A stretch of 64,000 bases of DNA from positions 1 to 64,000 of IMG/VR virus record IMGVR_UViG_3300027759_000053. The stretch is one strand, 5' to 3'. Positions 6,915 to 23,674 of the stretch are shown here, piece after piece; position 1 is the stretch's first letter, and each line of letters opens with the position of its first letter. The DNA comes from a virus. Both the position numbers and the translations under genes were made by a program. The notes beneath the pieces were generated by a model that saw nothing but the letters and a program-made list of their open reading frames with translations, made no database searches and had not been told where the DNA came from.

Positions 6915-7226
6915 ATGAATATTGAATCTTTAGTCAGTGAAGTCCGCCAGGCAACTGATTTTCAAATTAATAAAAAAATTCTGCGGGAAAAAATTCAAAC
7001 GGATTTACATCTAGCACATGCCGGGGGGTTATTTAAAATTACTCCGGAATTGATTGCGTTTGTAAAAACGTGGCCAATTGACGAATTATATATAGAAGAT
7101 GCGTATCAAAATCCTATTGCTGTAGATCGACAAGTATTTCTAGTTACAGCACAACAGCACTATCAACAAGTAATGAATCGTTGGCATAATGAATATGAGC
7201 AACTCAAAAAGATCCGAAAAGTCTAG
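6915..7226 (+). CDS. Small conserved-type phage protein, function unknown
   Basis: 103 residues, first gene after the promoter at 6857. It appears all-helical and charged, with the segment FKITPELIAFVKTWPIDELY in the middle. The pattern 'F-x-[IV]-T-P-E-L-I-A-F' with an acidic C-terminal helix resembles small hypothetical proteins of T4-like marine phages. Its 3' end overlaps the next gene by 38 bases. No function can be given. Confidence 0.6.
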   Translation: MNIESLVSEVRQATDFQINKKILREKIQTDLHLAHAGGLFKITPELIAFVKTWPIDELYIEDAYQNPIAVDRQVFLVTAQQHYQQVMNRWHNEYEQLKKIRKV

Positions 7227-7962: not shown

Positions 7963-8797
7963 ACATAAAGAGCAACAAGGATTTTTAACTATTGCCGCTA
8001 ACACAGAGGACGTTGATTATCTACGTTTGGCATATCTGCAAGCATTGAATGTAAAGGCTACGCAAAAAATTAAATCTTTTGCTGTAATAGTCGATACTAG
8101 CACAGCAGCAATAATAACTGAACAGCATCAGGCAGTATTTGATTATATTATTGAAGTTCCGGATAGTACAACAGGTCCATATGGATTAGAAGTACAAGCA
8201 TTTTGGCACACACCGTTTAAAGAAACAATTAAACTTGAAAGTGATTTGTTACTGCCAAGATCAATTGACCATTGGTGGACCACATTTAGATTACGTGATG
8301 TTGTACTAAGTACGGGATGCAAAAATTATAAACAAGAAACAGCCACATCCAGAAAGTATAGAAAACTATTCGATGATAATCATTTACCTGATGTGTATAA
8401 TGGACTAATGTATTTTAGATTCAGCCAGACTGCAACAAACTTTTTTAGCACAGCAGCTCAGATATTTGAAAATTGGTCCACAGTAAAAACGGCATTGGCA
8501 CATTGCGACGATGACTATCCTAGTACAGATGTGGTGTATGCATTAGCAGCAAACATAATTGGTACAGAATGGTGTACAATACCATCTGCAGACTTTATTA
8601 ATTTTGTGCATATGAAACCTGCTATTAATGGTTACACAGAGGATTGTAGTTTCACTGATGTGTTTGTTACAGAGTTCACAGATGGTATTGTACGTATCAA
8701 TAACATAAATCAATATCATCCACTACACTACCACGATAAAGCTTTTCCAACGGAGGAAATGATTGACTACTTTAGATCCATGGCAGGAATTCATTAA
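7955..8797 (+). CDS. GT-A-like glycosyltransferase-family protein (putative)
   Basis: 280 residues, paralogous in outline to the preceding gene: FLTIAANTEDVDYLRLA at the start and KLESDLLLP where that gene has VIDADYLILD. The C-terminal part has FINFVHMKPAINGY. The ATG overlaps the previous stop (ATGAGTAG). Loss of the exact DxD spacing leaves activity uncertain. It probably acts with the neighbouring transferases on the same substrate. Confidence 0.5.
   Translation: MSRHKEQQGFLTIAANTEDVDYLRLAYLQALNVKATQKIKSFAVIVDTSTAAIITEQHQAVFDYIIEVPDSTTGPYGLEVQAFWHTPFKETIKLESDLLLPRSIDHWWTTFRLRDVVLSTGCKNYKQETATSRKYRKLFDDNHLPDVYNGLMYFRFSQTATNFFSTAAQIFENWSTVKTALAHCDDDYPSTDVVYALAANIIGTEWCTIPSADFINFVHMKPAINGYTEDCSFTDVFVTEFTDGIVRINNINQYHPLHYHDKAFPTEEMIDYFRSMAGIH
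8752..8756 (+). promoter_or_regulatory. Strong Shine-Dalgarno deciding a TTG start
   Basis: GGAGG lies 6 bases upstream of the TTG at 8763, inside the end of the preceding gene. It supports initiation at this non-ATG codon. Confidence 0.6.
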
Positions 8798-9146
8798 AGG
8801 GTTACAATTAGCTGAGGAAATGGATCGTAACCGTCCTCGGCTAATTAAAGAATATAGATTGTACTACAATGAAGATGGAACCATAATTGGATTATGGGAA
8901 ACAAGCCATCCAGAGGGAAGTAACTATATTATACTAACTCACCCCGACGAGTATCAAAGACAAAATACTCAACTGCTACGTGTAGTAAACAATCAACTAA
9001 AGATACTTGATCCGCATACACCAAATCGTGTAAAATTAAAAAAGAGTAATGCAGGGCAACCAGTAGTAAAGGGATATGCAGCAATAGCCTTAGGCCTCAA
9101 TGAGGAATATTTAGAAATAGAATTTTATGAACAAACAAATAGTTGA
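8763..9146 (+). CDS. Small protein of unknown function
   Basis: 127 residues starting at a TTG with a consensus Shine-Dalgarno 6 bases before it. The sequence has a charged helix (QEFIKGLQLAEEMDRNRPRL) followed by beta-type segments with YRLYYNEDGTIIGLWE. It overlaps both neighbours (35 and 20 bases), so translation is probably coupled. It is not an enzyme family I recognise. Confidence 0.6.
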   Translation: MTTLDPWQEFIKGLQLAEEMDRNRPRLIKEYRLYYNEDGTIIGLWETSHPEGSNYIILTHPDEYQRQNTQLLRVVNNQLKILDPHTPNRVKLKKSNAGQPVVKGYAAIALGLNEEYLEIEFYEQTNS

Positions 9147-10056
9147 TATAGCAGACTTAGATTGCATATTTTTAACATATGATGAACCTAAAAAAGAAGA
9201 GTTTTGGATCAAAATTCAAAACATGATACCGTGGGCTAAACGTGTTGACGGAATTAAAGGAAGTGATGCTGCACATAAAGCGGCAGCGGCTGCAAGTGAC
9301 ACAGAACGATTTGTTCTTATTGATGGAGATAACATTCCAGATCCTGAGTTTTTTAATTTACAATTATCTCTTAACGAAAAGAATCATGACCAAGTTTTTA
9401 GATGGAAGGCACGTAATGTTATCAATGGGCTTCGATACGGTAATGGTGGTCTAAGTTGTTGGACAAAAGACTTTGTTAATACAATGCGTACACATGAAGC
9501 CAGTCTTGGAGATGAAGAAACCAGTGTAGAGTTTTGCTTTGATCCAAAGTATATAGCAATGCATAATTGTTATAGCACTACATATCCCAATGGCAGTCCT
9601 AAGCAGGCCTGGCGAGCAGGATTCCGTGAAGGTGTTAAGATGTGTTTGGATCGTGGACACAAACCCACACTGGCAGAATTTGAAGAAAAAGTTAACAATC
9701 GTAACTACGATCATTTGTGTATATGGCAAAGTGTTGGTGCCGATGTTGAAAACGGTCTATGGGCTATGTATGGTGCAAGGCTCGGTACATTTATGATTAT
9801 GCTTGAAAACTGGGATCATCATTATGTACAAGATTTTGATGTATTAGAAAAACTATGGGCAAGTTTTAGTAAAGAAGATCCGGTAGAAGGCTGTAATAAT
9901 ATAGAAGAGTCATTGACTAAACGTTTAGGATTACCTATAGTCACATACACCGCAGAACAAAGTAAGTTCTTTAAACACCATTATAGTACTGGTCAACGTA
10001 ACAGTGAGATTATGATGACAGAGATTGATGTTATTAGAAAGATTGAAGGATGGTAA
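9127..10056 (+). CDS. Glycosyltransferase-like protein, paralogue of the C-terminal domain of the 25550 gene
   Basis: 309 residues. The order of motifs DCIFLTYDEPKKEEFW, IPWAKRVDGIKGSDAAHKAA and FVLIDGDNIPDPEF is that of a nucleotide-sugar transferase in which DGDN serves as the metal-binding acidic motif (residues ~61-64). The protein at 25550 has the same architecture near its C-terminus (DIVFISNGEPDEE, WIQGVDGRVAAYQAAA, TWRTAFREVVKL versus AWRAGFREGVKM here). This copy lacks the upstream repeats. It belongs to the tailoring operon and probably modifies the same product as the radical SAM enzymes that follow. Confidence 0.55.
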   Translation: MNKQIVDIADLDCIFLTYDEPKKEEFWIKIQNMIPWAKRVDGIKGSDAAHKAAAAASDTERFVLIDGDNIPDPEFFNLQLSLNEKNHDQVFRWKARNVINGLRYGNGGLSCWTKDFVNTMRTHEASLGDEETSVEFCFDPKYIAMHNCYSTTYPNGSPKQAWRAGFREGVKMCLDRGHKPTLAEFEEKVNNRNYDHLCIWQSVGADVENGLWAMYGARLGTFMIMLENWDHHYVQDFDVLEKLWASFSKEDPVEGCNNIEESLTKRLGLPIVTYTAEQSKFFKHHYSTGQRNSEIMMTEIDVIRKIEGW

Positions 10057-11429
10057 GTGACTTCATGTCTGCTGCAGAGCAGATGAAGGCGAAACTGGGC
10101 GAAGCTCTGTGCCTTGCCAAGTGGCAGCAGGTTAGCCTACACCTACCTACAGGATTAACCAACAGTTGCTATCATCCTCCGCTACACGAAATAGATGCCA
10201 CATTACTAAAAGATAATCCTGGTGCATTACACAATACACCATATAAAAAAGAGCAGCGTAAAATTATGTTACGCAATGAACGTCCACAAGAATGTAGTTA
10301 TTGCTGGACACAAGAAGACTTAGGTAACCTAAGTGACAGACATTACCGTAGTGGTGAGCCCTGGGCAGCTGAACACTTTGATACAATACTAAATTTGACA
10401 GGAGATGAAGATGCCGTTCCTTCCTATGTGGAAGTTAATTTTAATCATGCTTGTAACCTTCGCTGTAGTTACTGTAGTCCACAGTTTAGTTCGTCGTGGG
10501 AAGACGAAATCCAACGATGGGGAGCCTACCCTACTAGTAAACCTCATAATGACCCGATCCATTTTAATGGCCGCCGCAAGCCTATACCTGTTCGCAATGA
10601 CAACCCCTATGTAGATGCTTTTTGGGCGTGGTGGCCCACTCTTTACCCAAAACTAAAACATTTTAGGATGACTGGTGGTGAACCGTTGATGGATCGTAAT
10701 ACCTTTAAGGTATTTGATTATGTATTGGCATTGCCTAAACCGGATTTGCATATTGATGTTACTAGTAATTTTAGTGTAGATCCACAGTTAATGAACAAGT
10801 ATATTGACTACGTTCAAAGATTATGTGACACACAAATTGAACATTTCATGCAGTATGTTAGTGTAGACTCCGGAATTCCTGAACATGCAGAATATATAAG
10901 GCATGGATTAAATTATTCTAGACTTCAATATAATTGTGCAAAGTATCTAATAGAAGTAACAAAAAGAAACAGTCTTACTTTTATTATAACAATGAACAAT
11001 CTTAGTGTATTAGGTATTAAAAATTTACTACAGGATATTTTAAATTATAGACGATTACATAGTGATACGTATCAGCGTGTTTGGTTTGATACACCACTAT
11101 TGAGACAACCCACGTGGCAAAGTTTACAAATACTTCCGCCGGTTTATGCACAACGATTAACTGATGTAGCCAATTGGATGGAAGAAAATTTAGAACGACC
11201 TGACCGTCCATTTCAAGGATTCAAAGATTATGAAGTACAGCGTATGCGGAGAACTATTGATTGGATGAAGGAAGGTAGCAAATTAGATCCAGAATATGTT
11301 AAACTACAACGTGCTGACTTTTATAGATTCTTTAACGAGCACGATAAACGTAGAGAAACAGACTTTTTAAAAACGTTCCCGGAAATGCGAGAGTTCTGGG
11401 AGGAATGTAGATATCATGCCCAGAATTAA
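10050..11429 (+). CDS. Radical SAM protein, twitch/SPASM type (1 of 6)
   Basis: 459 residues. The radical SAM cluster motif CNLRCSYC is at residues 135-142, followed by RMTGGEPL, the usual GGEP SAM-binding strand. The N-terminal ~130 residues hold extra cysteines (TNSCYHPP, ECSYCW) and the conserved phrase LHNTP; these could ligate an auxiliary Fe-S cluster, as in twitch-domain enzymes. It is closest to the genes at 11416 and 21035. Such enzymes use a 5'-deoxyadenosyl radical to alter peptides or sugars; the substrate here is unknown. The start could also be the ATG at 10065. Confidence 0.8.
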   Translation: MVSDFMSAAEQMKAKLGEALCLAKWQQVSLHLPTGLTNSCYHPPLHEIDATLLKDNPGALHNTPYKKEQRKIMLRNERPQECSYCWTQEDLGNLSDRHYRSGEPWAAEHFDTILNLTGDEDAVPSYVEVNFNHACNLRCSYCSPQFSSSWEDEIQRWGAYPTSKPHNDPIHFNGRRKPIPVRNDNPYVDAFWAWWPTLYPKLKHFRMTGGEPLMDRNTFKVFDYVLALPKPDLHIDVTSNFSVDPQLMNKYIDYVQRLCDTQIEHFMQYVSVDSGIPEHAEYIRHGLNYSRLQYNCAKYLIEVTKRNSLTFIITMNNLSVLGIKNLLQDILNYRRLHSDTYQRVWFDTPLLRQPTWQSLQILPPVYAQRLTDVANWMEENLERPDRPFQGFKDYEVQRMRRTIDWMKEGSKLDPEYVKLQRADFYRFFNEHDKRRETDFLKTFPEMREFWEECRYHAQN

Positions 11430-12768
11430 TAACGAAACAGATTTACAATATAAGCGTAGAGTGATTGACATCAAGTCAGATTCATTCTGCGGAGCAAAAT
11501 GGTACAACGCTACTATATGGTTGGGCAGCGGTATGACCACAAGTTGTCATCACCCATTGCCACACAAGATTGAAGTAGAAGATGTGATTGAAAATCCTCG
11601 AACATTACATAATACACACAAAAAGAAAGCAGAGCGACGCCTAATGCAAAAAGGCGACAGACCTGAAGGCTGTGAGTATTGTTGGAAAATAGAGGATATA
11701 GGTAGAGATAACATTAGCGATCGAGTATACAAAACAGTAATATATTCAGACGAGGATTTAAATCATGCATACAAAACATCATACACCGAAGATATTAATC
11801 TTCGCACTCTTGAAATTAGTTTTGACCGTACTTGCCAATTTGCTTGCTCTTACTGCAATCCTGCTTTCAGTTCAACATGGGTTAAAGATATCAGAGATAA
11901 TGGACCCTACACTGGTTTGGTGTCAGACGGTAGGAATCACTTTACTCACACTCATGACAGTAGTCAACTTTATAGATTTGGCGAGAGTAATCCGTATGTG
12001 GAAGCGTTTTTTAAGTGGTGGGAGTCGGATCTCCATAGTACACTAGACGAATTGCGTATCACCGGTGGTGAGCCTTTAATGTCAGGATATACCTGGCAAC
12101 TGCTAGATTGGTTTAAGACTAATCGTGGTAAAAGTAAAACAAGATTAGCAATTAACAGTAATTTGGGAACACAAGTTGATATCGATCGCTTATTTAATAG
12201 TGTGGACGCACCAATTGACCTATACACTAGTAACGAATCTATCGGAAGTCATGCAGAGTATATTAGAGACGGATTGGTTTGGGACGATTGGGCTAATAGT
12301 ATAGAACTCATATGCGACAACTACAGTGTAGTTAAATTGCGTGGATTACACATTATGTGTACCATTAATGCATTGTGTTTGGAAAGTTTAACTGAGTTCT
12401 TGGACTGTATGGTACAGTGGAAAATGTGTTACGGAAAAGACTTTCCGAACTTTACACTAAATATTTTACGTTTTCCTAGTTTTCAAAGTCCATTGGTATT
12501 GCCTGACGAACACAGAACACGACACAAAAATAATCTAGAAGCATGGTTAGCAGCCAACGATAACGAATGGTTACACGAACACGAACGTAATCATGTACAA
12601 CGCCTGATAGACTATCTTGATGTAGTTAAAACTCCACACAGCGAGGCATTTGACTTGCCCAAGTTGCGTAACGACTTTAAACAATTTCATCAACAGTATA
12701 ATCAACGGCGCAATAAAAATTTTACAGAAACATTTCCTGCTATAGCAGATTGGTATAATTCATTATGA
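11416..12768 (+). CDS. Radical SAM protein, twitch/SPASM type (2 of 6)
   Basis: 450 residues. The cluster motif CQFACSYC occupies residues 140-147, with RITGGEPL downstream. The N-terminal cysteine region (TTSCHHPL, GCEYCW) and LHNTHKKKAERR parallel the preceding gene, making the pair clear paralogues. The ATG overlaps the preceding gene by 14 bases and the TGA overlaps the next start. The extra cysteines suggest an auxiliary Fe-S cluster. Substrate unknown; the coupled arrangement suggests the enzymes act in one pathway. Confidence 0.8.
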   Translation: MPRINNETDLQYKRRVIDIKSDSFCGAKWYNATIWLGSGMTTSCHHPLPHKIEVEDVIENPRTLHNTHKKKAERRLMQKGDRPEGCEYCWKIEDIGRDNISDRVYKTVIYSDEDLNHAYKTSYTEDINLRTLEISFDRTCQFACSYCNPAFSSTWVKDIRDNGPYTGLVSDGRNHFTHTHDSSQLYRFGESNPYVEAFFKWWESDLHSTLDELRITGGEPLMSGYTWQLLDWFKTNRGKSKTRLAINSNLGTQVDIDRLFNSVDAPIDLYTSNESIGSHAEYIRDGLVWDDWANSIELICDNYSVVKLRGLHIMCTINALCLESLTEFLDCMVQWKMCYGKDFPNFTLNILRFPSFQSPLVLPDEHRTRHKNNLEAWLAANDNEWLHEHERNHVQRLIDYLDVVKTPHSEAFDLPKLRNDFKQFHQQYNQRRNKNFTETFPAIADWYNSL

Positions 12769-14084
12769 GTGTAAAAGGATTCTATAACAAAGGATATGTC
12801 TATAATGAACGTGTTCCTTATTTCATTGATCAAGATAAACTTAGCGATGATCAATTATATAAATTAACCAAAAGTAAAACATTTTGTATGCTACCGTGGG
12901 TGCATATGCATGCATATCCCGATGGTAGAGTCTATCCTTGTTGTTTAGCAGAATATTGGGAACCGTTAGGTGACCTTAGAAAGAATAAAATGATTGAAGT
13001 ATGGAACCAAGATCCATATAAAACAATCCGAACAAACATGTTGAACGATCGATCATGTAAAGAATGTACCAAGTGTTACGAGCAAGAAAAAAATGGATTT
13101 TTTAGTATGCGAAATGATAGTAATCGTAACTATGGACATTTAATAAATGAGATAAATCAAACAGAAGCAGACGGAACACACCCAGAATTTAAAATAAGAT
13201 ATTGGGATGTTAGGTTTAGTAATTTATGCAATTTTAGTTGCCGGAGCTGTGGTCCTATATTCAGCAGCAACTGGTATAACGATCATGTCAAACTATACAA
13301 CACTAAACCTGATGTACTTGGAAGAGAAATGGCAAGAGTTGAATACACTGCCGGGGACGAAGATTCTATGCTCGAGCAAATGCTTCCGCATATTCCATAC
13401 CTTGAACAAGTTTATTTTGCCGGCGGTGAACCGCTGATAATGAAAGAACATTATTTCATGTTAGAGAAACTTATCGAGCACGGAAAAACAGATGTACGTA
13501 TTCAGTATAACACAAACTTTAGTGAACTTGCATTTAAAGATAAACACGTTTTTAATTACTGGAAACATTTTAAAAATATTAGTGTTGGTGCTAGTTTAGA
13601 TGCATCAGGAGAACGTGCAGAATTAATGCGTAAAGGAACTGACTGGGAACAGGCAATTAATAACAGAAGAAGAATGATAGAAGAAGTTCCGCATGTTGAT
13701 TTTTATGTTGCTGCAACAATTAGTGCAATGAATGTACTGCATATATTAGATTTTCATCGTGAGTGGACAGATTTAGGTCTTATTAAAGCCAAAGATTTTA
13801 ATGTTAACGTATGCCAAGGCCCTGAGTGGTATCGTGTAGATATTCTGCCACCCAAGTTTAAAGATACTGTAGTGATACCTGCGTATCAAAAACATATTGA
13901 ATGGTTAGAACCACAGGATACATTGCAACGTGCAACCACTGGGTATAAGAGTTTAATTAATCTAATGCAAGCAAATGATGCCAGTCACTTATTACCAAGA
14001 TTTAGAGAAGAAATAGAAAAATTAGATATATTAAGAAAAGAAAATTTTTGGAAGGTATTCCCAGAACTAAATGATCTTGCCTAA
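12765..14084 (+). CDS. Radical SAM protein, twitch/SPASM type (3 of 6)
   Basis: 439 residues. The cluster motif CNFSCRSC is at residues 155-162, with YFAGGEPL following. The N-terminus has the phrase FCMLPWVHMHAYPDGRVYPC with paired cysteines, then CKECTKCYEQE, typical of twitch/SPASM auxiliary-cluster segments placed ahead of the barrel. It differs from the two preceding enzymes and groups with 14071 and 16047. It overlaps its neighbours by 4 and 14 bases. Confidence 0.8.
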   Translation: MSVKGFYNKGYVYNERVPYFIDQDKLSDDQLYKLTKSKTFCMLPWVHMHAYPDGRVYPCCLAEYWEPLGDLRKNKMIEVWNQDPYKTIRTNMLNDRSCKECTKCYEQEKNGFFSMRNDSNRNYGHLINEINQTEADGTHPEFKIRYWDVRFSNLCNFSCRSCGPIFSSNWYNDHVKLYNTKPDVLGREMARVEYTAGDEDSMLEQMLPHIPYLEQVYFAGGEPLIMKEHYFMLEKLIEHGKTDVRIQYNTNFSELAFKDKHVFNYWKHFKNISVGASLDASGERAELMRKGTDWEQAINNRRRMIEEVPHVDFYVAATISAMNVLHILDFHREWTDLGLIKAKDFNVNVCQGPEWYRVDILPPKFKDTVVIPAYQKHIEWLEPQDTLQRATTGYKSLINLMQANDASHLLPRFREEIEKLDILRKENFWKVFPELNDLA

Positions 14085-15285
14085 TACAATTTGTATGTTG
14101 CCGTGGATTAGTATAGAAACTAGTCCAGTCGGAACTGCTAGACCGTGTTGTTTGGCCAGAGAGGAAATAACAAACAGCAACGGTGATAAGTTTGATTTAA
14201 ATAAAGACAATTTAGAAACAATTTATCATAGCGAATACATGCAACGTCTTCGTAGGCAATTTCGTGCTGGCGAACAACCAGAAACTTGTAAACTATGTTG
14301 GGACGAGGAGTCTGCCGGCAGAACAAGTAAACGCATGAATAGTCGTATACGTTTAAAAGAATTGTATCATGACGTCGACTGGGATAATGATAATCCAGAC
14401 CAATTATGGTTTCTTGATTTGAAACTTGGTAATATTTGTAATCTTAAGTGCCGTATATGTGGATCCTGGTCTAGCAGTAAATGGGCAGTAGAAGAATTAG
14501 AGTACATGCCCAAAGACTTTGATAAGAAACAACATATTGCTTATCAATGGTTAAAACAAGGTTCGTGGCCGCGTAATCCAGATACGAACTTCTGGGAAAA
14601 CTTAAAGAGACTATTGCCCAATATTAAGTATCTTGAGTTTACTGGTGGTGAACCTTGGTTAATACAAGAACATATTGAGCTATTAAAATACGCAGTAGCA
14701 CAAGGATACAGCAAAAATATTGATATACATTATAACACTAATGCTACACAATGGCCCCAGGATCTTGTTGAAATTTGGAGAGACTTTGGGCGTGTTGACG
14801 TTGCATTTAGTATTGATAATGTAAACAATAGATTTGAATACGAAAGATACGGCGCAAAGTGGGGTACTGCTAATTCGATAATTGATTCAGTTCATGGCAT
14901 GCAACTGCTGTATCCCAACATAACTACACAATTATGTTTTACAGTTAATATACAAAATGTGTATTATCTTGATGAATTGTTAGCGTGGGCAGACACTAAG
15001 AATTTTGGCGACGTTTACTTTAATATGATGCATAGTCCGGATCATATGAGTATACAATATATGACTCAGACTGCACAAGAATTGGTGCTTGATAAATTAA
15101 CAACTACTTTCTGGTCATCTAATCGTTATCAACTTGAAATTAATAATATAATAAACTTTATTAAAAATGGCGCTGGAAGCGATGGTAAAGAATTTTGTCG
15201 TAAGATGCAACAGACTGATGCATACAGAAAACAGAACTTTATTAATACGCATCCGGAAATAGCACGGGCAATGGGCTATGTTTGA
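14071..15285 (+). CDS. Radical SAM protein, twitch/SPASM type (4 of 6)
   Basis: 404 residues. The cluster motif CNLKCRIC is at residues 123-130 and EFTGGEPW follows. The N-terminal auxiliary region is compact: ICMLPWISIETSPVGTARPC followed by ETCKLCWDEE. It overlaps the gene before by 14 bases and the unknown gene after it by 8 bases. The same cysteine pattern as its neighbours suggests one auxiliary cluster besides the SAM cluster. Confidence 0.8.
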   Translation: MILPNTICMLPWISIETSPVGTARPCCLAREEITNSNGDKFDLNKDNLETIYHSEYMQRLRRQFRAGEQPETCKLCWDEESAGRTSKRMNSRIRLKELYHDVDWDNDNPDQLWFLDLKLGNICNLKCRICGSWSSSKWAVEELEYMPKDFDKKQHIAYQWLKQGSWPRNPDTNFWENLKRLLPNIKYLEFTGGEPWLIQEHIELLKYAVAQGYSKNIDIHYNTNATQWPQDLVEIWRDFGRVDVAFSIDNVNNRFEYERYGAKWGTANSIIDSVHGMQLLYPNITTQLCFTVNIQNVYYLDELLAWADTKNFGDVYFNMMHSPDHMSIQYMTQTAQELVLDKLTTTFWSSNRYQLEINNIINFIKNGAGSDGKEFCRKMQQTDAYRKQNFINTHPEIARAMGYV

Positions 15286-16069
15286 TTTTAAAATTTTTTT
15301 TAAGGATCTACCTGCACTAACAGTAGAATTAGAAGATTCTGTAACTGGCAAGAATTATTATAATTTACTTTACAAAAATTATAATAATCAAATGCCTATT
15401 TTTAGGGATCCAGCAAAATATACCATTGAGTACATGAGTGATTTAGTTAAGGAAGCCAACTATAAACTTGGCTGGGATTGGGATTATACACCTGGCGACC
15501 ATGAAGTTGCATCTAGGTTACATAAAGACATTGAAGTATTATTAGAAAAAGGGTTTGATAGTATACCTGCAGATTGCGACGAATTGGTACACGAAATTCA
15601 TCAGTGCTTGCATTTACTAAATGAAGGAAGAAATCACTTAGTGACAAGACAAGATTGGTTACAAATTGAATGGTATAACAATAATACAATACCAATCGAC
15701 AATTTTTTTAAATTTCAAGATTCAACAACAATTGGTGATATTAAACTACAATATCCATTTGTTGGTGCAAGCCCGTTGCAACTTTATTTAGAAAAAGATT
15801 ATCAAAAAATATCACAGACGTGTAAATTTCATAGTGTTATTAGACCCGGGATCAATATTGTCATTAATAATTTTAAAAAATTTACAGAGCATCAAAAATT
15901 ATTAGACGATATTAAGAAGAACGATAATAATTTTTACCATCTACATGGCCCAGAAAAAATCTTAAGATACACAGGCTATCCTGTAATTGGAAAAGTTACA
16001 AATTTAGATGACTTAATGTATATCGTAAAACAACCAATTTTAGAATTTGAAAAACTTGAATTCAACTAA
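15278..16069 (+). CDS. Unknown protein paired with a radical SAM gene (family copy 1)
   Basis: 263 residues, no recognised domain. It is Asn/Lys/Tyr-rich with a helical middle (HEVASRLHKDIEVLLEKGFD, then VHEIHQCLHLLNEGRNHL). The gene at 17338, which also directly follows a radical SAM gene, has a similar layout (NHEVLNKLHNHFEILQG then AIRQLNNICHEMENLILSQRK), so the two are probably distant relatives. Repeated pairing with radical SAM enzymes suggests a partner, carrier or substrate-binding role. This is inference from position only. Confidence 0.5.
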   Translation: MFDFKIFFKDLPALTVELEDSVTGKNYYNLLYKNYNNQMPIFRDPAKYTIEYMSDLVKEANYKLGWDWDYTPGDHEVASRLHKDIEVLLEKGFDSIPADCDELVHEIHQCLHLLNEGRNHLVTRQDWLQIEWYNNNTIPIDNFFKFQDSTTIGDIKLQYPFVGASPLQLYLEKDYQKISQTCKFHSVIRPGINIVINNFKKFTEHQKLLDDIKKNDNNFYHLHGPEKILRYTGYPVIGKVTNLDDLMYIVKQPILEFEKLEFN

Positions 16070-17363
16070 ACCTACTACATTATGCATGGCACCGTGGACG
16101 CATACGTATCTAAGTCCGCAAACTGAACGTAGGCTATGCTGCGCCAGTCGTGAGCCTGCACAAAACTTTGAACAGTATATTGATACCAGTGCTGGTACTG
16201 GAAAATATATTCCCGTTACATTAGAACAACACTGGAACAGTGATCGTATGCGCAGTGTGCGCCGCCGCATGATGGCCGGTGAAACATTATCTGAGTGTGA
16301 AGTATGTAACGATAAACTATTAAACACTGACGTTTACCGCAGTTATTTTAATCAATTATTCGGACATAAGTATGATAAAATAGTAGAAGAAACAGACGCA
16401 ACTGGCTATACCACAATGAAGCCAGTATCGTGGGATTACAGATTCAGTAATCTCTGTAACTTCAAATGTCGCATGTGTGGAGACATGTTAAGCAGTGCTT
16501 GGGAAAGTGAGCAACGCCAACACAACATGATCAACTGGGCGGATCCAAAGAATAATTGGATGAAACCCGAGATCAAACATCAAATTGAAAAATTCCAAAC
16601 AACTCAAATTGAAGCCGAGTTCGCAGCAGCAGTAGAGGACCACCGTATCGAAGAAGTGTACTGGGTGGGAGGAGAACCGTTAATGTACGAACAACATTGG
16701 CGGTATATGCAGCGTATAATTGAACTAGGAGATGGACCAAATGTCTATGCAAGATATAACACAAACCTTAGCCGCGTACGGTATCGGAATATTGATTTGT
16801 ACAGTGATATACTTTGTAGGTTACGGGATTGGCAGATATGTGCAAGCATCGATGGCACAGAAAGAATTGGAGAGTATATACGAACAGGCCTTAACTATAC
16901 AGAATGGCTTGAAAACTTTAAAAGAGGAGTTGGCCTCGCTACAAACAGACGTCAAATGAGATTGGACTTTACACTTACCCTTCCGGGTATGTTTGAAGTT
17001 GGTAATATACAGCAGTTAGGTAACGATTTGGGCGTAGACATACTAGCCAAAGTTGTCTTTAGTTTTAGCCCGGACATAGTTATGTCACCTTTAGTACTAC
17101 CTAGAAAGATATTAAATGTATGGGTAGATGAAATTTTGGATGGCCCAACCACACCCCTCGGCCCGTTAAAGGATATACTAGTTCAACTTAAAACACGCCC
17201 TACTTTTCAAGAGCAATATGGTGAAGAAGCATACCGTTTAGGTATTGCTCGAGGTAAGGCTCGCGTGTTACAATTAGAAGCTATTCGTAGTCAATCTATT
17301 ACTATGGATGAAATACTTTCAAAAAGAGCAGATGTATATGAGTGGTGGAACGCCATCAGTTAA
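16047..17363 (+). CDS. Radical SAM protein, twitch/SPASM type (5 of 6)
   Basis: 438 residues, apparently using TTG at 16047 (another TTG at 16056 is possible), overlapping the previous stop. The cluster motif CNFKCRMC is at residues 137-144, with YWVGGEPL after it. The N-terminus carries LCMAPWTHTYLSPQ, RLCCAS and CEVCND, the auxiliary-cluster cysteines. It groups with the copies at 12765 and 14071. Confidence 0.8.
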   Translation: MKNLNSTKPTTLCMAPWTHTYLSPQTERRLCCASREPAQNFEQYIDTSAGTGKYIPVTLEQHWNSDRMRSVRRRMMAGETLSECEVCNDKLLNTDVYRSYFNQLFGHKYDKIVEETDATGYTTMKPVSWDYRFSNLCNFKCRMCGDMLSSAWESEQRQHNMINWADPKNNWMKPEIKHQIEKFQTTQIEAEFAAAVEDHRIEEVYWVGGEPLMYEQHWRYMQRIIELGDGPNVYARYNTNLSRVRYRNIDLYSDILCRLRDWQICASIDGTERIGEYIRTGLNYTEWLENFKRGVGLATNRRQMRLDFTLTLPGMFEVGNIQQLGNDLGVDILAKVVFSFSPDIVMSPLVLPRKILNVWVDEILDGPTTPLGPLKDILVQLKTRPTFQEQYGEEAYRLGIARGKARVLQLEAIRSQSITMDEILSKRADVYEWWNAIS

Positions 17364-18432
17364 AGTTGTATTACGCAACCCATTGGATTATAACGATCAA
17401 TTTGATTATAATATAATCTCGCATAATAACGAATTATCTAAAAATTGGATTGATGCGTTAAAAGTGTTATTAACTAACAAAAATCTACTAGAAAAGAATT
17501 TTTGTTTTATGGGGTTTCCGCAAACAGCAAGAACTCTAGAATACCTTTGCAATGAATTAAATTCTGCCGTAGCGACTATCAATAACTTTTTCACGGATTA
17601 TCAAATTGATGATGTATATACAACAGAAAATGTTGTAGCATTTGATTACGCAGACAATGGTCTCAATCATGAAGTCTTAAATAAATTGCATAATCATTTT
17701 GAAATACTACAAGGTACAGTTTGGGATTTAAGTGAGTACTATCGCAAGGCAGACTATGAAACAAAGTATGCTATTCGGCAGTTAAACAATATCTGCCATG
17801 AAATGGAAAACTTGATTCTAAGTCAGCGTAAAGCTGCAACATTGCCGTTCTGGGTGCGTCCTAGTCAAATTACAACATTTATTAATGCTCAACGATATGA
17901 ATTAACTGATGAACATAGAAAACTATTTTCTGTTAATGGATATGACCGTGTATTGGGTGGAGTATATATGCATTGGACACAAATAGGAAAAACAGTATAC
18001 GAAGTGTTCCGTGATGAAGATGCACCTCCACTAACAGCGACAGTGTGCGAAGCAATTACTGAGTTAAAATATTACAGCGGCGAATTTGATGTTGAATGGG
18101 GAAATGATGTTGTGTATGGTGGCCCTCATCCGTGGCACAACATTGAACAAGATAAATTTAGAAAATGGTTAACAGACAACGGTAGAGATTATCGCGACCC
18201 AAAATTAAGTTGCGGGTATTTACCAATTGGACAAATAGATTTACAATCAAGTTTTGGTACAACAGATTATCAAGATGTTTGGAATACACTAAGCAGTCAC
18301 TTGGATATCTATAAAATTGAAGTAGATGGAGTTAGTAGTACATTTGATTATAGCTGGTCGGACAATAATTATAAACAGATGCAAATAGATATGATGAAGC
18401 CAGGATATGACTACAGTTCTAGCTGGAGGTGA
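17338..18432 (+). CDS. Unknown protein paired with a radical SAM gene (family copy 2)
   Basis: About 364 residues. In-frame ATGs occur at 17308, 17332 and 17338; 17338 is preferred because AAAGAG lies 9 bases upstream and the overlap with the radical SAM gene is then only 26 bases. The middle helical part resembles the protein at 15278; the C-terminal half is extra, with YGGPHPWHNIEQDKFRKWL and the phrase LSCGYLPIGQIDLQ. No known catalytic motif was recognised. The next gene starts within its end. Confidence 0.5.
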   Translation: MSGGTPSVKVVLRNPLDYNDQFDYNIISHNNELSKNWIDALKVLLTNKNLLEKNFCFMGFPQTARTLEYLCNELNSAVATINNFFTDYQIDDVYTTENVVAFDYADNGLNHEVLNKLHNHFEILQGTVWDLSEYYRKADYETKYAIRQLNNICHEMENLILSQRKAATLPFWVRPSQITTFINAQRYELTDEHRKLFSVNGYDRVLGGVYMHWTQIGKTVYEVFRDEDAPPLTATVCEAITELKYYSGEFDVEWGNDVVYGGPHPWHNIEQDKFRKWLTDNGRDYRDPKLSCGYLPIGQIDLQSSFGTTDYQDVWNTLSSHLDIYKIEVDGVSSTFDYSWSDNNYKQMQIDMMKPGYDYSSSWR

Positions 18433-18955
18433 TAGTTTTGTATGGGGTAGTGAACTTGCTGATAGTCCCAATGGCGGCCCTGATGGGTACAGTCGTCGAA
18501 CCTTTCCTGCATTGTTGGCCGACGATTACTTGTGTGCAGCATACCCTGGACTGGGTAATAGAGAAATAGCTCAACGTGTACGTGATTACTTGACCTGGTC
18601 CAAAGTTGACATTGTTATTGTGTGTTGGACTTGGCCCAGTAGAGATTATACATTAGACAGTGATTTTCATATTAAAAATTTAGAAGAATATTTGTTGTAT
18701 CACAATATTCCGTATTTGTTTACATGTGCAGATAATTGCGTAGTAACAGATAACTTAGATTACCGTAACTGGTTTTTCTTTCCTCCGGGCCAAGGGGAGG
18801 ACCAAACAGAAAGTCCAAGAGGTTTTTACCAGTGGGCTGTGGAGAATAAGTACAAGTGCGGTATACAACAACATCCATTGGAACAAGCCCATTCTGATGC
18901 AGCAGACCTTATAAAAGGAAAATTCAATGAACTGGTTACGAAACGTTTACAATAG
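18407..18955 (+). CDS. SGNH/GDSL-like hydrolase fold protein (1 of 5)
   Basis: 182 residues. The nucleophile block GGDSFVWGSEL is at residues ~7-17, a glycine block with Asn (YPGLGNREIAQRV) follows, and the last block has HPLEQAHSDAA with the catalytic-type His. This is the SGNH order seen in acyl esterases and acetyltransferase-like enzymes of polysaccharide pathways. It could remove or transfer acyl groups on the product of this operon. The start overlaps the preceding gene by 26 bases. Confidence 0.65.
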   Translation: MTTVLAGGDSFVWGSELADSPNGGPDGYSRRTFPALLADDYLCAAYPGLGNREIAQRVRDYLTWSKVDIVIVCWTWPSRDYTLDSDFHIKNLEEYLLYHNIPYLFTCADNCVVTDNLDYRNWFFFPPGQGEDQTESPRGFYQWAVENKYKCGIQQHPLEQAHSDAADLIKGKFNELVTKRLQ

Positions 18956-19028
18956 AATTAAACTAGAAATCAAGTATCGACGTAAACTACGTGAATTACG
19001 TAAAAGAGATCCATTTATTTACAAATGA
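18927..19028 (+). CDS. 33-residue very basic conserved-type phage peptide
   Basis: A small open frame of 33 codons plus stop, beginning ATG at 18927 with AAAGGAAAA just upstream and ending TGA at 19026-19028. It overlaps the end of the previous gene and the ATG of the next (ATGA), so it fills an otherwise empty gap exactly. The product begins MNWLRNVYNRIK and ends RKRDPFIYK, rich in Arg/Lys and probably one amphipathic helix. Short proteins ending in RDPFIY are familiar from marine T4-like phages. Function unknown. Confidence 0.65.
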   Translation: MNWLRNVYNRIKLEIKYRRKLRELRKRDPFIYK

Positions 19029-19600
19029 TTTTAGTAAACGGGTGTAGCTTTACCAGTGGCGAAGAAAGCCCTATCGCCTGGCCAAGTCTGATACAGAATT
19101 CTGTTAATATTGCAGTTGCAGGAGCCAGTAATGATTATATATTGCGTAGTACAGTAGATTATGTCAATGACACTAGCAATTATCAATTAAAAGTTATTGT
19201 AGCCTGGACAACTCCTAACAGGATTGAAATATCAAATAAACACCTAACACCAACTAGTAATCGTCGGTACGGTAATGCAGTAGTTGATGAAGTATTTCAT
19301 GATTGGGACGAAGAATGGGCTCAAAAGAAATTCTTAACCCAAGTTCAATTACTGCATGAATTTTTGTATATGCGCTTAGTGCCGCATTTTTTTGTTAGTG
19401 CATTTGGTATACAAACGTGGGCACAAGGGGAAACAAACTTACCATGGCCAGGATGGCCCAAAGAAGGACTAGTTGAATGGATGGGAGACTGTCCTAAGGG
19501 TGTTGGTGGTCATCCGTTGGAACTAGGACATCAACGAATAGCAGAAAAAATAAATGAACATATTAGGCATCTCGGCTGGTTTTCACGACGCAGCGATTAG
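19025..19600 (+). CDS. SGNH/GDSL-like hydrolase fold protein (2 of 5)
   Basis: 191 residues. The start MILVNGCSFTSGEE places Cys-Ser where the usual GDS motif lies; AGASNDYI carries the SGNH Asn block, and GGHPLELGHQRIAEKI carries the terminal His block. The nucleophile serine is present even though the preceding Asp is replaced. It overlaps the carbamoyltransferase gene by 47 bases. It probably acts on an acylated sugar or similar small group. Confidence 0.6.
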   Translation: MILVNGCSFTSGEESPIAWPSLIQNSVNIAVAGASNDYILRSTVDYVNDTSNYQLKVIVAWTTPNRIEISNKHLTPTSNRRYGNAVVDEVFHDWDEEWAQKKFLTQVQLLHEFLYMRLVPHFFVSAFGIQTWAQGETNLPWPGWPKEGLVEWMGDCPKGVGGHPLELGHQRIAEKINEHIRHLGWFSRRSD

Positions 19601-21038
19601 TGTAATTAATCGTCGAGGTGATATACTGTTTGCCGGACATAGTGAGCGTTATAGTAAATTAAAAAACGATACAGATATCTCTCCGGATCTAATGGAAGAA
19701 ATATGTGGGTATGAACTTGATACCGTTGCGTATTACGAAATCCCTTGGCGTAAACAATTACGTAGATTAGTTTCTGGCGAAGGCATCGAACTAAACAAGT
19801 TAACCGTAAAACAAATTGTTCATGATCAAACACGACCTTGGTTACGTAATACACCCAAGAACATAGTCAGCTTTGGCCATCATTTAAGTCATGCTGCCGC
19901 TGGCTTTCAAACCAGTCCGTATGATCGTGCCACAGTGGTAGTAATAGATGCCATTGGCGAGTCTGACACTATTAGTATATACGGTGCAGAATATGATAGT
20001 AGAGGTCAGGCACACTATAAAAAATTATGGGGACAACGATATCCACATAGCATAGGGTTAATGTATAGTGCAATGACCGAACGTGCCGGCCTTAAACCCA
20101 ATGAGGATGAATATATCTTAATGGGCATGAGTGCATATGGTAAACGAGACATTAGTGATTTAATGAGTCATAGATTTGTACATGACGAAGTTGACATTTT
20201 ATTCAAGGAAAACTTCCATGCTGGTATCCCGTCTGATTATCTTGAATACGTACACAATACAGACATTGCCGCCGGAGCACAAGACCTATTAGAGACTCTT
20301 GTATATAATGTAATGCGTCGTGCTAGAAATTTTAAATGGAGCACAAATTTAGTTTATATGGGTGGTGTTGCCCTTAACTGTTTAGCAAATAGAAACTTAG
20401 GAGAATACTTTGAACATATATGGATTATGCCTAATCCTGGTGATGCTGGTAGCAGCCTTGGTGCTGCGGCACTGGCCTACGGTCATCGTCTCAACTGGCG
20501 CAATGCTTATCTTGGGCATGATATACCTGGGCAGTATCCAGTTAATGCCCTTCTTGATTGCCTACTGGCTAATGGCATTGTTGGTGTTGCTAACGGTCGT
20601 GCAGAATTTGGGCCAAGAGCCTTAGGCAATCGTAGTTTATTAGCAGATCCACGCGGTGCAGACATAAAGGATCGTGTAAATGAAATTAAACGACGTCAAA
20701 AATTTAGACCTTTTGCCCCGGTCATATTGGAAGAGATGGCTGATCAGTATTTTGATTTCAGCCCTGGGTGGACTACTAGCCGTTATATGCAGTCAGTTGC
20801 TCGTTGTTGGTATCCTGACTTGTTTCCTGCTATCTGCCATTATGATGGGACCAGCCGAGTACAAACGGTACCACGAGATGGTTCAGGGATTAGAGAACTC
20901 TTAGAGAAATGGTTTGTAATGACTGACTGTCCTATGTTACTTAATACTAGCTTAAATATTCGAGGTGAGCCAATGGTCAACGACCGAGTAGACGCAGATA
21001 GATTTGAACAACTATATAAAGTAAAGGTATTAAGTTGA
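19554..21038 (+). CDS. Carbamoyltransferase, NodU/CmcH/TobZ family
   Basis: 494 residues, shorter than the ~570 usual for this family. The N-terminal YrdC-partner-like ASKHA domain starts MNILGISAGFHDAAISVI and has the histidine site GHHLSHAAAGFQTSPYD. The C-terminal domain has NGRAEFGPRALGNRSLLADP, RPFAPVILEE and NTSLNIRGEP, all family hallmarks. The family makes carbamoyl-AMP from carbamoyl phosphate and ATP, then carbamoylates a hydroxyl of a sugar or antibiotic. It adds a further tailoring step to the operon. The start lies inside the preceding SGNH gene. Confidence 0.9.
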   Translation: MNILGISAGFHDAAISVINRRGDILFAGHSERYSKLKNDTDISPDLMEEICGYELDTVAYYEIPWRKQLRRLVSGEGIELNKLTVKQIVHDQTRPWLRNTPKNIVSFGHHLSHAAAGFQTSPYDRATVVVIDAIGESDTISIYGAEYDSRGQAHYKKLWGQRYPHSIGLMYSAMTERAGLKPNEDEYILMGMSAYGKRDISDLMSHRFVHDEVDILFKENFHAGIPSDYLEYVHNTDIAAGAQDLLETLVYNVMRRARNFKWSTNLVYMGGVALNCLANRNLGEYFEHIWIMPNPGDAGSSLGAAALAYGHRLNWRNAYLGHDIPGQYPVNALLDCLLANGIVGVANGRAEFGPRALGNRSLLADPRGADIKDRVNEIKRRQKFRPFAPVILEEMADQYFDFSPGWTTSRYMQSVARCWYPDLFPAICHYDGTSRVQTVPRDGSGIRELLEKWFVMTDCPMLLNTSLNIRGEPMVNDRVDADRFEQLYKVKVLS

Positions 21039-22303
21039 AACAAATATTCCCAATCAAATCAGATACAGCGTGTCTTTTAAAATGGACTTGGTCCACCGTT
21101 TTTTTAAACATAGGAACCACTAGCAGTTGTCATAGAGTCAATCACGATAAAATTACAGTTGACACATTTGATTCATTTCATAATACTCCTCGTAAAATTG
21201 CAACTCGAGAGATGATGCGCCAAGGCGAATGGCCAAAAGCAGGATGCGAATACTGTCAAAAAATAGAAGAAGCAGGAGGTGTTAGCGACAGACAATTTCA
21301 ATTGTCTAGCATGCATTACGAAGTTCCGGATGAACTTCTTGAAGATAATAGTACAAATGTTGTAACTCCAAAAATACTAGAAGTTTATTTTTCTAATACA
21401 TGTAACATGAGTTGTTTATATTGCGGACCGCATTTTAGTTCTATGTGGGAAGCAGAAAATAATAGATTTGGAAATTTTCAAAATAAGCAGATTCTTTTAA
21501 AGACCACTGAACAAGTAGGATTTAATAAAGAATATGACCAAATGCGAGAAAAGTTTTTTCAATGGTTAGAAAAATATGGTCATGGCCTACAAGATCTACA
21601 TATACTGGGTGGCGAACCTTTTCATCAGCCTGAATTAGAAATGTGTTTAGATTTTTTTGAAAAATTTCCAGCACCTAATATGAGATTTACTTTGATCAGT
21701 AATTTAAAAGTAAATCCTAATAAGTTTAAAAATATTATCAATAAGATGATAAAACTTAAACAAGATAAAAAAATTAAGGAATTGCAAATTACCGGAAGTT
21801 TGGATTGCTGGGGACCACAGCAAGAGTATATTAGATACGGATTAGATTTAAATGAGTATACTGCTAACATGGAGTATCTGTTGGACAAGGATATTGTTCT
21901 TTGTGTAAATGCTGCAATTAATGCGTTAAGCATTAAAACAATGCCCGAATATATTGCCAAAATAAATGAATGGAATACCATTAGACTAGCATCATGGAAC
22001 AATGATCCTAAAAGAAAAATCAGTTTCAGTTTCATGACAGCAAATGCTCCTCCGTACATGATGCCTGATATTTTTGTTCCTGGATTATTCAAAAACGAAT
22101 TTGAACAAATTTTAAATTTAATGCCAAGAGACACAGATTATCAAAATCAAAACTATGAGCATATGACGGGAATTTACAAACAAGTAGATACTACACCAGC
22201 AAACAATGATATGATCGAAACATTAAAAATTTATTTAGATGAAATAGATCGTAGACGCAATACCAATTGGCGTAGCTTATTTCCATGGTTGGAAGAACAA
22301 TGA
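21035..22303 (+). CDS. Radical SAM protein, twitch/SPASM type (6 of 6)
   Basis: 422 residues, starting at a TTG that overlaps the previous stop (TTGA). The cluster motif CNMSCLYC is at residues 123-130 and HILGGEPF follows. The N-terminal cysteines (SSCHRVNH, GCEYCQK) and FHNTPRKIATRE match the 10050/11416 subgroup, although it is separated from them by the carbamoyltransferase block. It is more AT-rich than those. Its stop overlaps the ATG of a decayed cysC fragment. Confidence 0.8.
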   Translation: MKQIFPIKSDTACLLKWTWSTVFLNIGTTSSCHRVNHDKITVDTFDSFHNTPRKIATREMMRQGEWPKAGCEYCQKIEEAGGVSDRQFQLSSMHYEVPDELLEDNSTNVVTPKILEVYFSNTCNMSCLYCGPHFSSMWEAENNRFGNFQNKQILLKTTEQVGFNKEYDQMREKFFQWLEKYGHGLQDLHILGGEPFHQPELEMCLDFFEKFPAPNMRFTLISNLKVNPNKFKNIINKMIKLKQDKKIKELQITGSLDCWGPQQEYIRYGLDLNEYTANMEYLLDKDIVLCVNAAINALSIKTMPEYIAKINEWNTIRLASWNNDPKRKISFSFMTANAPPYMMPDIFVPGLFKNEFEQILNLMPRDTDYQNQNYEHMTGIYKQVDTTPANNDMIETLKIYLDEIDRRRNTNWRSLFPWLEEQ

Positions 22304-22382
22304 GCATTCAAATATTAATAATGGGACTACTAGTCTAGCAGCCTTTTAAAAGAAATTAGACAATAAAGGTTTTAGTGTTGAA
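22300..22382 (+). pseudogene. Decayed 5' fragment of the APS kinase gene (partial duplication)
   Basis: These 83 bases align with the first 102 bases of the intact gene at 23039. ATGAGC, then AATATTAATAATGGGACT, match apart from two changes; after a net loss of 19 bases covering the P-loop codons, CAATAAAGGTTTT and GTTGAA match again. Translation from 22300 gives MSIQILIMGL and then stops. The copy overlaps the preceding stop codon as an active start would (ATGA), suggesting that cysC once began here and was displaced. Confidence 0.8.
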
Positions 22383-23037
22383 AAATATAATTATAGTTGG
22401 TGATAGTTTTTGTACTACTCCAAATTTCTGGCCTAGACTACTGGCTAAGTCACTAGACATGAATCTTATTAATTTTGGTTTAGCTGGAGGCTCTTGGTGG
22501 AGTGTAAAAAGTTTTTTAGAGAGATTGCCCCCGGAACATATTGATAACTGTGAAATAATCGTATTTGTACATACAAATGCACAACGTATACCGACAACTG
22601 ATGAGGAAATTAATCAAGTAAATTTTTCAAATTTAGAGTCAAACAATGAGTTAAATCGTGCAATTGGTTTATATTATAAGTATATACACAACGAAATGTT
22701 TTTAAGTTGGGCGCAGTTAAAATGGTTTGAAGAAATAAATCAACAATGGAATAACATTAAAGTTGTACATTTATTTTCGTTTCCCCAGAATCAAAAATAT
22801 GTGCTTAATGGTATGAAAGTCTCTCCGAGTTTATCAGCAATCAGCTTAGATGAAATAGCATCTAAAGATGGCAGTCTCGTTAACGACAAAAGACCAAATC
22901 ACCTTAGTAGGAGTAACAATAACCAGTTAGCACAACAATTATTTCAGTTAATTAGCAACTATCAGATTGGCGAAGTTAATTTAGATATAAGTAAATTTAA
23001 TTTATTATCCAATCAATGGATACAAAAATGGAATTAA
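22375..23037 (+). CDS. SGNH/GDSL-like hydrolase fold protein (3 of 5), inserted gene
   Basis: About 220 residues, starting at GTG 22375 or TTG 22378 within the decayed cysC fragment. The opening IIIVGDSFCTTPNFWPRLLA carries the GDS nucleophile block and FGLAGGSWWS the second block; the C-terminal part lacks an obvious DxxH motif, with HLSRSNNNQLAQQL in the right place. It is clearly richer in A+T than the cysC gene after it. Its flanks are the duplicated cysC 5' sequences, so it looks like a recent arrival. Confidence 0.6.
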   Translation: MLKNIIIVGDSFCTTPNFWPRLLAKSLDMNLINFGLAGGSWWSVKSFLERLPPEHIDNCEIIVFVHTNAQRIPTTDEEINQVNFSNLESNNELNRAIGLYYKYIHNEMFLSWAQLKWFEEINQQWNNIKVVHLFSFPQNQKYVLNGMKVSPSLSAISLDEIASKDGSLVNDKRPNHLSRSNNNQLAQQLFQLISNYQIGEVNLDISKFNLLSNQWIQKWN

Positions 23038-23038
23038 T

Positions 23039-23674
23039 ATGAGCGTTCGAATATTAATAATGGGACTTCCTGGTTCGGGTAAAACTTATCTAGCCACAGC
23101 CCTTCAAACAGAATTACACAATAAAGGTTTTACGGTTGAATGGTTTAATGCTGATGAGGTACGTGAACGATTCGACGATTGGGATTTTAGTGAAGCAGGT
23201 CGTATACGCCAAGGGCACCGTATGCGAGACCTGGCAGAAAAGTCTAGTGCAGACTTTGTAATTAGTGACTTTGTTGCTCCTTTACCTGTAATGAGGGAGG
23301 CATATGGAGCCAATTTGGTTATCTGGTTGGATACTATTGATACTAGTCGTTATGAAGATACTAATAGAGTATTTGTAGCACCCGAGCAATACGATTATCG
23401 TATTATGGCGAAAAGCGCCGAACGCTGGGCCAATACGATTGCAAATAAACTTGCAATGAATTTTAAACAGCGACAAGAGAGTCGTATCAGATCTATTACC
23501 AAAGCAGTTACATGGAGATTCACTGGCAGCCTTGATACATTTGTTGTTAGTTGGTTATTAACCGGGCAACCTCATCTTGCAGCAGGAATAGCCAGCATTG
23601 AATTTTTTACAAAGATTGTTTTATACTATTTTCATGAACGTATATGGCATAAAATTAAATGGGGTAAACCATGA
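23039..23674 (+). CDS. cysC: APS kinase (CysC-like) fused to DUF2061 membrane domain
   Basis: 211 residues. A P-loop GLPGSGKT is at residues 9-16, followed by FNADEVRERFDDWDFSEAGR and FVISDFVAPLPVMREAY, the order of adenylylsulfate kinases, which phosphorylate APS to the sulfate donor PAPS. The C-terminal ~60 residues (SITKAVTWRFTGSLDTFVVS to FHERIWHKIKWG) are a DUF2061-type segment with two hydrophobic helices, so the enzyme may be membrane-attached. A free-standing DUF2061 copy is at 46444. Sulfotransferase-like genes at 60764-62671 could use the PAPS. It overlaps the next gene by 4 bases. Confidence 0.8.
   Translation: MSVRILIMGLPGSGKTYLATALQTELHNKGFTVEWFNADEVRERFDDWDFSEAGRIRQGHRMRDLAEKSSADFVISDFVAPLPVMREAYGANLVIWLDTIDTSRYEDTNRVFVAPEQYDYRIMAKSAERWANTIANKLAMNFKQRQESRIRSITKAVTWRFTGSLDTFVVSWLLTGQPHLAAGIASIEFFTKIVLYYFHERIWHKIKWGKP

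Follow-up and report, generated by a model that had tools for sequence, protein, structure and literature searches.

Why would a phage carry six radical S-adenosylmethionine (SAM) genes of one type in a single operon? The question is raised by the IMG/VR virus record IMGVR_UViG_3300027759_000053, whose first 64,000 nucleotides (hereafter the window) were described in an earlier note, made from the sequence alone, as harboring six twitch-type radical SAM paralogues, named R1 to R6 here. One result of our sequence analysis is secure: R1–R5 are five predicted twitch radical SAM enzymes, none redundant with another, that are conserved as a set in a fixed order and are tied to a glycosyltransferase (GT)-like gene in the fibre region of the phage. 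What such a set might produce is considered below.

Radical SAM Genes of the Window

The six open reading frames (ORFs) are intact, with no frame-disrupting assembly errors, and all lie on the plus strand, where they overlap or are closely spaced between positions 10050 and 22303 (Table 1). The operon that had been proposed is practically gapless, its largest gap being 71 nucleotides. All six proteins exceed the cut-off (170 bits, whole protein) of NF033640 (NCBIfam N_Twi_rSAM, twitch domain-containing radical SAM) with 234–405 bits; they thus fall in one family and not in unrelated ones. PF04055 alone recovers only three of the six above its own cut-off, the other half being missed or under-scored, so the reading of the bare sequence had seen more than a standard scan. 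In the alignment of the six proteins (20–25% identity to R3), the invariant columns are four N-terminal cysteines, CxxxCxxC and GGEP, which confirms the motifs first reported; the N-terminal twitch cysteines precede the other two motifs in all six, as expected for NF033640. Since no match above the cut-off occurred in 14 well-known bacterial and archaeal genomes, the six-gene set is not a chance result.

Together with a B12-type and a QueE-like gene, the window contains eight radical SAM genes, as had been counted. Farther along the record, a seventh NF033640 member was found, as well as a CxxxCxxC protein whose PF04055 match is below threshold. The load, earlier called very high for a phage, is indeed high but not unique, since 20 related records have 7–16 NF033640 matches apiece and the published T4-like ocean genome TARA_ERS488813_N000010 has 12 radical SAM genes and an A-type carrier (PMC5332604).

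The source record comprises 144,478 bases, of which the window is a part. Its DNA polymerase is 50% identical to that of Sinorhizobium phage Phosso and 46% to that of Agrobacterium phage Atu_ph07, which have genomes of 469–490 kb. The record is therefore assigned to a T4-like phage related to jumbo phages, and is probably a genome fragment.

Conservation of the Five-Gene Set

IMG/VR was scanned twice, with R1 and R3 as queries, so that the loci represent closer relatives and R2, R4 and R5 were not selected for. After the removal of duplicates, 81 distinct loci with enough downstream sequence were available. All five genes were present in 78 of them, and the exact order R1-R2-R3-R4-R5 was kept in 71. 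Mapping of every ORF revealed a recurring block of fibre genes, two GT-like genes, gene 9127 (genes outside the R series are named by their start positions), R1–R5, gene 17308, SGNH-like genes and a carbamoyltransferase gene. Gene 17308 was located downstream in 81/81 loci and the carbamoyltransferase gene in 71/81. Conversely, when loci were picked by gene 9127 (its closest relatives), at least one radical SAM gene lay within 8 kb downstream in 58 of 59, and R1 itself in 57.

R6 behaves differently. Among the best-hit ORFs of 160 related loci, only 9 corresponded to R6, versus 140–186 to each of R1–R5; in other loci, additional and different family members stood between the core genes. The supposed array of six is thus a run of same-strand genes that is not uniform: a conserved core of five is accompanied by a rarely shared accessory, whose N-terminal motif is FHNT and not LHNT. 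Relatives found by DNA polymerase were mostly fragments, and two of the six long contigs among them did not contain the five-gene set.

A tree of 130 rows separated the five clades (support in Table 1), with R1, R2 and R6 on one side and R3, R4 and R5 on the other, in agreement with the two subgroups earlier read from the N-terminal motifs. In a second, more careful tree, with strong support for R1, R2 and R5, fair support for R4 and weak support for R3, each clade took in sequences from freshwater phage, marine phage and one Bacteriovoracaceae chromosome. As freshwater, marine and bacterial sequences are found in each of the five clades, the five-way split predates these phages. Median ratios of nonsynonymous to synonymous substitution rates (dN/dS) of 0.04–0.12 indicate that each copy is under strong purifying selection. 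Practically every unique orthologue (about 90–103 per gene) has all four cysteines of the twitch and all three of the radical SAM site, while most other cysteines vary. These results leave recent tandem amplification, with redundant or functionless copies, barely credible: the paralogues do lie side by side in one operon, but the tree contradicts it, the five clades having arisen before the phages and the bacterial set diverged, and the low identity of the paralogues to R3 contrasts with mostly 65–90% among orthologues of R1–R5, under the dN/dS values just given.

Marine contigs that look like phage sequences misfiled in bacterial bins had the same cassette at 40–66% identity, with R5 before R4. 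Whether the contig is freshwater, marine or alphaproteobacterial, the cassette comes immediately after fibre genes. In the Bacteriovoracaceae chromosome (locus L193:6040-18036), an eight-gene radical SAM cluster includes members of all five phage clades; this contig also carries, by sequence reading, ObgE and an Lgt-like gene, and no fibre genes.

Architecture of the Enzymes

The AlphaFold2 (AF2) model of R3 is confident. Its best matches among solved folds, namely GDGT-MAS, anSME, CteB, BlsE, DesII and viperin, are general SPASM/twitch-type or related enzymes with low TM-scores, and R3 therefore has no close solved structure. Residues 36–106 of the R3 profile align to the twitch that BtrN has at its C-terminus, each of the four cysteines finding its counterpart (E 2e-3); the radical SAM motif of R3 comes after this region, at residues 155–162. 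According to this alignment, the domain order is permuted, with the twitch before the barrel in R3 and after it in BtrN. Only one four-cysteine auxiliary site occurs in these proteins.

Twitch enzymes such as BtrN carry out two-electron oxidations, in which the auxiliary cluster probably serves as electron acceptor; the substrate oxidized by BtrN is an aminocyclitol (PMC9012708). By analogy, we infer that oxidation chemistry of this kind may extend to R1–R5.

Genes Associated With the Quintet

Most genes of the cassette recur with it (Table 1). The GT-like, SGNH-like and carbamoyltransferase genes said to be interwoven with the radical SAM genes are present; the carbamoyltransferase is solidly identified, whereas the GT-like proteins are so named by motif only, and the SGNH-like proteins keep Gly, Ser, Asn and His as invariant residues, ordered as expected, without a profile match. 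None of the three GT-like cassette proteins (7189, 7955 and 9127) matched any Pfam, NCBIfam or PDB profile. On the opposite strand nearby, a DegT aminotransferase and NAD-dependent epimerases were verified by profile. An A-type Fe-S carrier encoded elsewhere in the record also occurs in 9 of 12 related records.

The 17308 protein was modeled with a pLDDT of 88.8; it has 10 phage matches in BFVD at E<1e-6, a very conserved C-terminal tail (GYDYSS) and no fold match among PDB structures. A single partner family made up of the products of 17308, 15278 and the gene at record position 68836 was considered and rejected, as a profile built without the latter two misses them.

A domain homologous to the 9127 protein forms the C-terminal part of the 25550 product and is preceded by about five internal repeats (FDYSWHP...YEYHF...QWQRNGG). 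The two sulfotransferase-family genes and a third look-alike found near the end of the window, together with the APS-kinase-like gene, could possibly constitute a phage sulfation route. A phosphate-selective porin (PF07396; L012:9282-10697) and a PstS-like phosphate-binding protein (L013:1261-2286) are encoded by the phage as well. The T4 late promoter TATAAATA was found 0 times on both strands of the window, versus 8.6 expected, which is odd for a T4-like phage; therefore no argument on expression timing is based on it.

Table 1. Features of the window (positions 1 to 64,000 of the record) and of the remainder of the record; assignments are predictions, and clade support refers to the 130-row tree.
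Feature	Position	Strand	Evidence and occurrence
Tail-fibre-type protein, Peptidase_G2 intramolecular chaperone domain	4388..5890	+	PF11962 1.4e-6; phrog_19602 tail fiber 5.6e-10; 39/48 loci, upstream of cassette
Fibre-like structural protein, RxFFNxGG motif	5905..6849	+	44/48 loci; alignment
GT-like protein, DADY motif	7189..7962	+	homologous to 7955 product, hhalign 99.2%; no Pfam/PDB match
GT-like protein	7955..8797	+	homology to 7189 product
Small conserved protein between GT-like genes	8763..9146	+	
GT-A-like protein, IDGDN motif (enzyme type inferred)	9127..10056	+	upstream of R1 in 75/75 testable loci
R1, twitch radical SAM, LHNT/CSYCW subgroup, conserved core	10050..11429	+	NF033640 307.8 bits; clade 100; 7 cluster Cys in 103/103 orthologues
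R2, twitch radical SAM, LHNT/CEYCW subgroup, conserved core	11416..12768	+	NF033640 278.1 bits; clade 99; 7 Cys in 100-102 of 102
R3, twitch radical SAM, CMLPW/PCC subgroup, conserved core	12765..14084	+	NF033640 405.1 bits; clade 95; AF2 pLDDT 92.9, pTM 0.90; BtrN twitch alignment
R4, twitch radical SAM, CMLPW/PCC subgroup, conserved core	14071..15285	+	NF033640 333.5 bits; clade 98; 8 N-terminal and core Cys 94/94; weak SkfB profile match
Small accessory protein	15278..16069	+	rare in relatives
R5, twitch radical SAM, CMAPW/LCC subgroup, conserved core	16047..17363	+	NF033640 281.3 bits; clade 100; 8 Cys 90/90
Conserved phage protein of unknown fold	17308..18432	+	81/81 loci of freshwater type; not in marine cassettes
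SGNH-like protein, GDS start, HPLExAH end	18407..18955	+	alignment; no profile match
SGNH-like protein, GCSF and HPLELGH motifs	19025..19600	+	
O-carbamoyltransferase, NodU/Nol-like	19554..21038	+	PF16861 2.3e-45; PF02543 7.6e-35; phrog_1601 1.6e-87
R6, twitch radical SAM, R1/R2 subgroup, accessory, rarely shared	21035..22303	+	NF033640 233.8 bits
SGNH-like protein, GDSF start	22375..23037	+	sequence reading; no Pfam match
APS-kinase-like P-loop domain fused to DUF2061	23039..23674	+	PF01583 1.8e-9; PF09834 4.1e-21
Repeat protein with 9127-like C-terminal domain	25550-27766		
QueE-like radical SAM protein	46617-47459		
B12-type radical SAM protein	48886-50391		
Sulfotransferase-family genes (two, and a look-alike)	60764-62671		PF03567
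Seventh NF033640 member, beyond window	67714-68817		203 bits
CxxxCxxC protein, beyond window	91788-92789		PF04055 below threshold
A-type Fe-S carrier, beyond window	107818-108186 (L011:6818-7186)	-	PF01521 3.6e-19

Possible Role of the Quintet

The best support for a role connected with glycans comes, by analogy, from Vibrio phage K566 (L014:10473-23259). There, two GT8 genes (PF01501, 8e-8 and 2.5e-12) are interspersed among distant family-like members in a cluster adjoining PagP and LpxC. The K566 members are 23–27% identical, are not the R1–R5 set and were not placed in the R clades. Comparison by hhalign of the cassette GT-like families with the K566 GT8 proteins found nothing, and membership of GT8 is therefore not claimed.

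Based on these data, R1–R5 may be a dedicated oxidative tailoring pathway for a saccharide of phage fibres or of the host surface, a reading that we prefer while giving it a little under an even chance. Each enzyme keeps an intact CxxxCxxC site for SAM cleavage and would generate a 5'-deoxyadenosyl radical and abstract one hydrogen from the substrate, and the auxiliary cluster would take up an electron, which would result in five successive oxidations or rearrangements. The saccharide would be built by the neighboring GT-like proteins, finished by carbamoylation and acyl transfer, and most likely used to decorate the phage fibres or the host envelope, where it could change receptor recognition or block rival phages. 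The A-type carrier of the phage probably helps to load the Fe-S clusters. Non-redundant paralogues, here in five clades with a fixed order, are what the stepwise tailoring envisaged in the earlier note would need; the sugar or peptide product suggested there is a candidate.

Several observations weigh against the saccharide pathway. GT identity rests on DxD-like motifs, the mutual homology of two proteins and the K566 parallel, and the similarities to BtrN and to PDB structures are weak and generic. The R1–R5 set of Bacteriovoracaceae is not accompanied by GT-like, SGNH or carbamoyltransferase genes. A family gene of Halobacteriovorax overlaps a gene for a peptide-recognition domain, followed by a tail-fibre-chaperone-like protein, and this points to protein substrates. 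Finally, a literature search, with most subscription papers and preprints outside it, found no enzyme, substrate or product for any NF033640 member.

The Halobacteriovorax locus, along with the position of the phage cassette directly behind fibre genes that carry intramolecular chaperone domains, leads to another explanation, according to which the targets of the five enzymes would be side chains in the neighboring tail-fibre or adhesin proteins, modified as by SPASM/twitch maturases, and the GT-like enzymes would then glycosylate the same fibres. Most known SPASM/twitch enzymes act on peptides. In Halobacteriovorax marinus (L325:16932-17778), an R1-like gene overlaps the gene of a PqqD-like peptide-recognition domain (RRE; PDB 5v1u, 2.5e-9), after which a 144-aa S74-like protein is encoded (PDB 6f45, long tail fibre subunit, 1.4e-6). 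In a second genome (L224:2563-3327), RRE and S74-like domains share one ORF beside a divergent family-like member, and in a third genome (L203:5132-5902) the two genes are adjacent on opposite strands near an N-terminal-twitch radical SAM gene. Such pairs, beside or near twitch radical SAM genes, may constitute a new type of system for the maturation of peptides or fibres.

Between the overlapping genes and small gaps of the phage operon, a small precursor gene cannot be accommodated. This makes a peptide product of the classic type less likely, but it would fit a substrate as large as a fibre protein. Because the phage cassette follows chaperone-bearing fibre genes, fibre modification is a serious rival. 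However, no RRE was detected in the phage cassettes or the window by phmmer with a single query sequence, the fibre proteins vary far more (mostly 30–68% identity) than the radical SAM enzymes, no common modification motif was noticed beyond RxFFNxGG, and the carbamoyltransferase would be left unexplained. We consider modification of fibre proteins the main rival, possible though unlikely.

A free small molecule used in infection, such as a diffusible product, a cofactor or a modified nucleotide of viperin-like or DNA hypermodification type, is improbable. Weak viperin profile matches (PADLOC, 16–28 bits) were obtained for all six proteins, viperin is among the fold matches of R3, and the phage also encodes QueE and, by sequence reading, a thymidylate synthase-like protein. 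However, the scores for the viperin model NF038283, where reported, are 18–23 bits versus a cut-off of 180, viperins have no N-terminal twitch, and the cassette sits with fibre genes and not with nucleotide genes. A viperin-type defense was rejected, all six proteins being far below the NF038283 cut-off.

Relation to Known Systems

Earlier publications cover the family model, the large number of radical SAM genes in T4-like phages and the occurrence of cassettes of such genes where host recognition is encoded. NF033640, whose curated cut-off is passed by the six window proteins and the seventh member in the record, is a subfamily model without an assigned function and without a fixed set of five paralogues. 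Pelagimyophages have been described with cassettes of radical SAM genes in their host recognition cluster (PMC7029224), and the co-occurrence of an A-type carrier and a large number of radical SAM genes was pointed out earlier with TARA_ERS488813_N000010 (PMC5332604). The phage studied here resembles them as a T4-like aquatic phage with radical SAM genes in the fibre region and an A-type carrier in the same genome; the glycosyltransferases described there would correspond to the GT-like proteins of the cassette, so named by motif. The passages on which this comparison is based count or mention the genes and do not resolve five clades of orthologues, the order of the genes, their link to a GT-like gene or a cellular set.

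BtrN, the twitch dehydrogenase of butirosin biosynthesis, has a twitch whose four cysteines align to those of R3, but at the C-terminus and not the N-terminus, and whole-protein similarity is weak. The SPASM/twitch peptide maturases anSME, SkfB and CteB, which appeared among the matches, share the radical SAM barrel and an auxiliary cluster, whereas the phage enzymes have a single auxiliary site of four cysteines, and their cassette has neither a small precursor gene nor, by the single-query phmmer search, an RRE. Vibrio phage K566, a named phage, carries several family-like radical SAM genes with GT genes placed among them. The literature search defined above yielded no report that describes the quintet in its order, or any function.

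Outside phages, the family is abundant in Bdellovibrionota, with about ten to thirty-odd matches per genome. The Bdellovibrionia metagenome-assembled genome G027 (L320-L321) has a dense chromosomal cluster of ~30 kb with about fifteen N-terminal-twitch radical SAM genes, together with Asp/Asn hydroxylase-like genes homologous to the phage gene at 116048. A family copy of Paenibacillus lies in a fatty-acid/polyketide-like cluster (sequence reading). Taken together, the members of the family probably take part in more than one pathway.

Bdellovibrio uses phage-like fibre adhesins. A broader proposal, which we regard as rather doubtful, is that R1–R5 would be a self-contained radical pathway of five steps, older than the phages that carry it and common to T4-like aquatic phages and Bdellovibrio-like bacteria, and that it would modify the fibres, or fibre-borne glycans, with which Gram-negative cells are gripped.

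Conclusion

Metabolic genes of phages usually represent single steps. Five distinct radical enzymes with a near-obligate GT-like partner, found in freshwater and marine phages and on a bacterial chromosome, imply a whole uncharacterized pathway. The quintet provides five groups of orthologous enzymes, a twitch architecture in permuted order and a genomic setting where the product can be sought, and solving it would give this radical SAM subfamily a first function.

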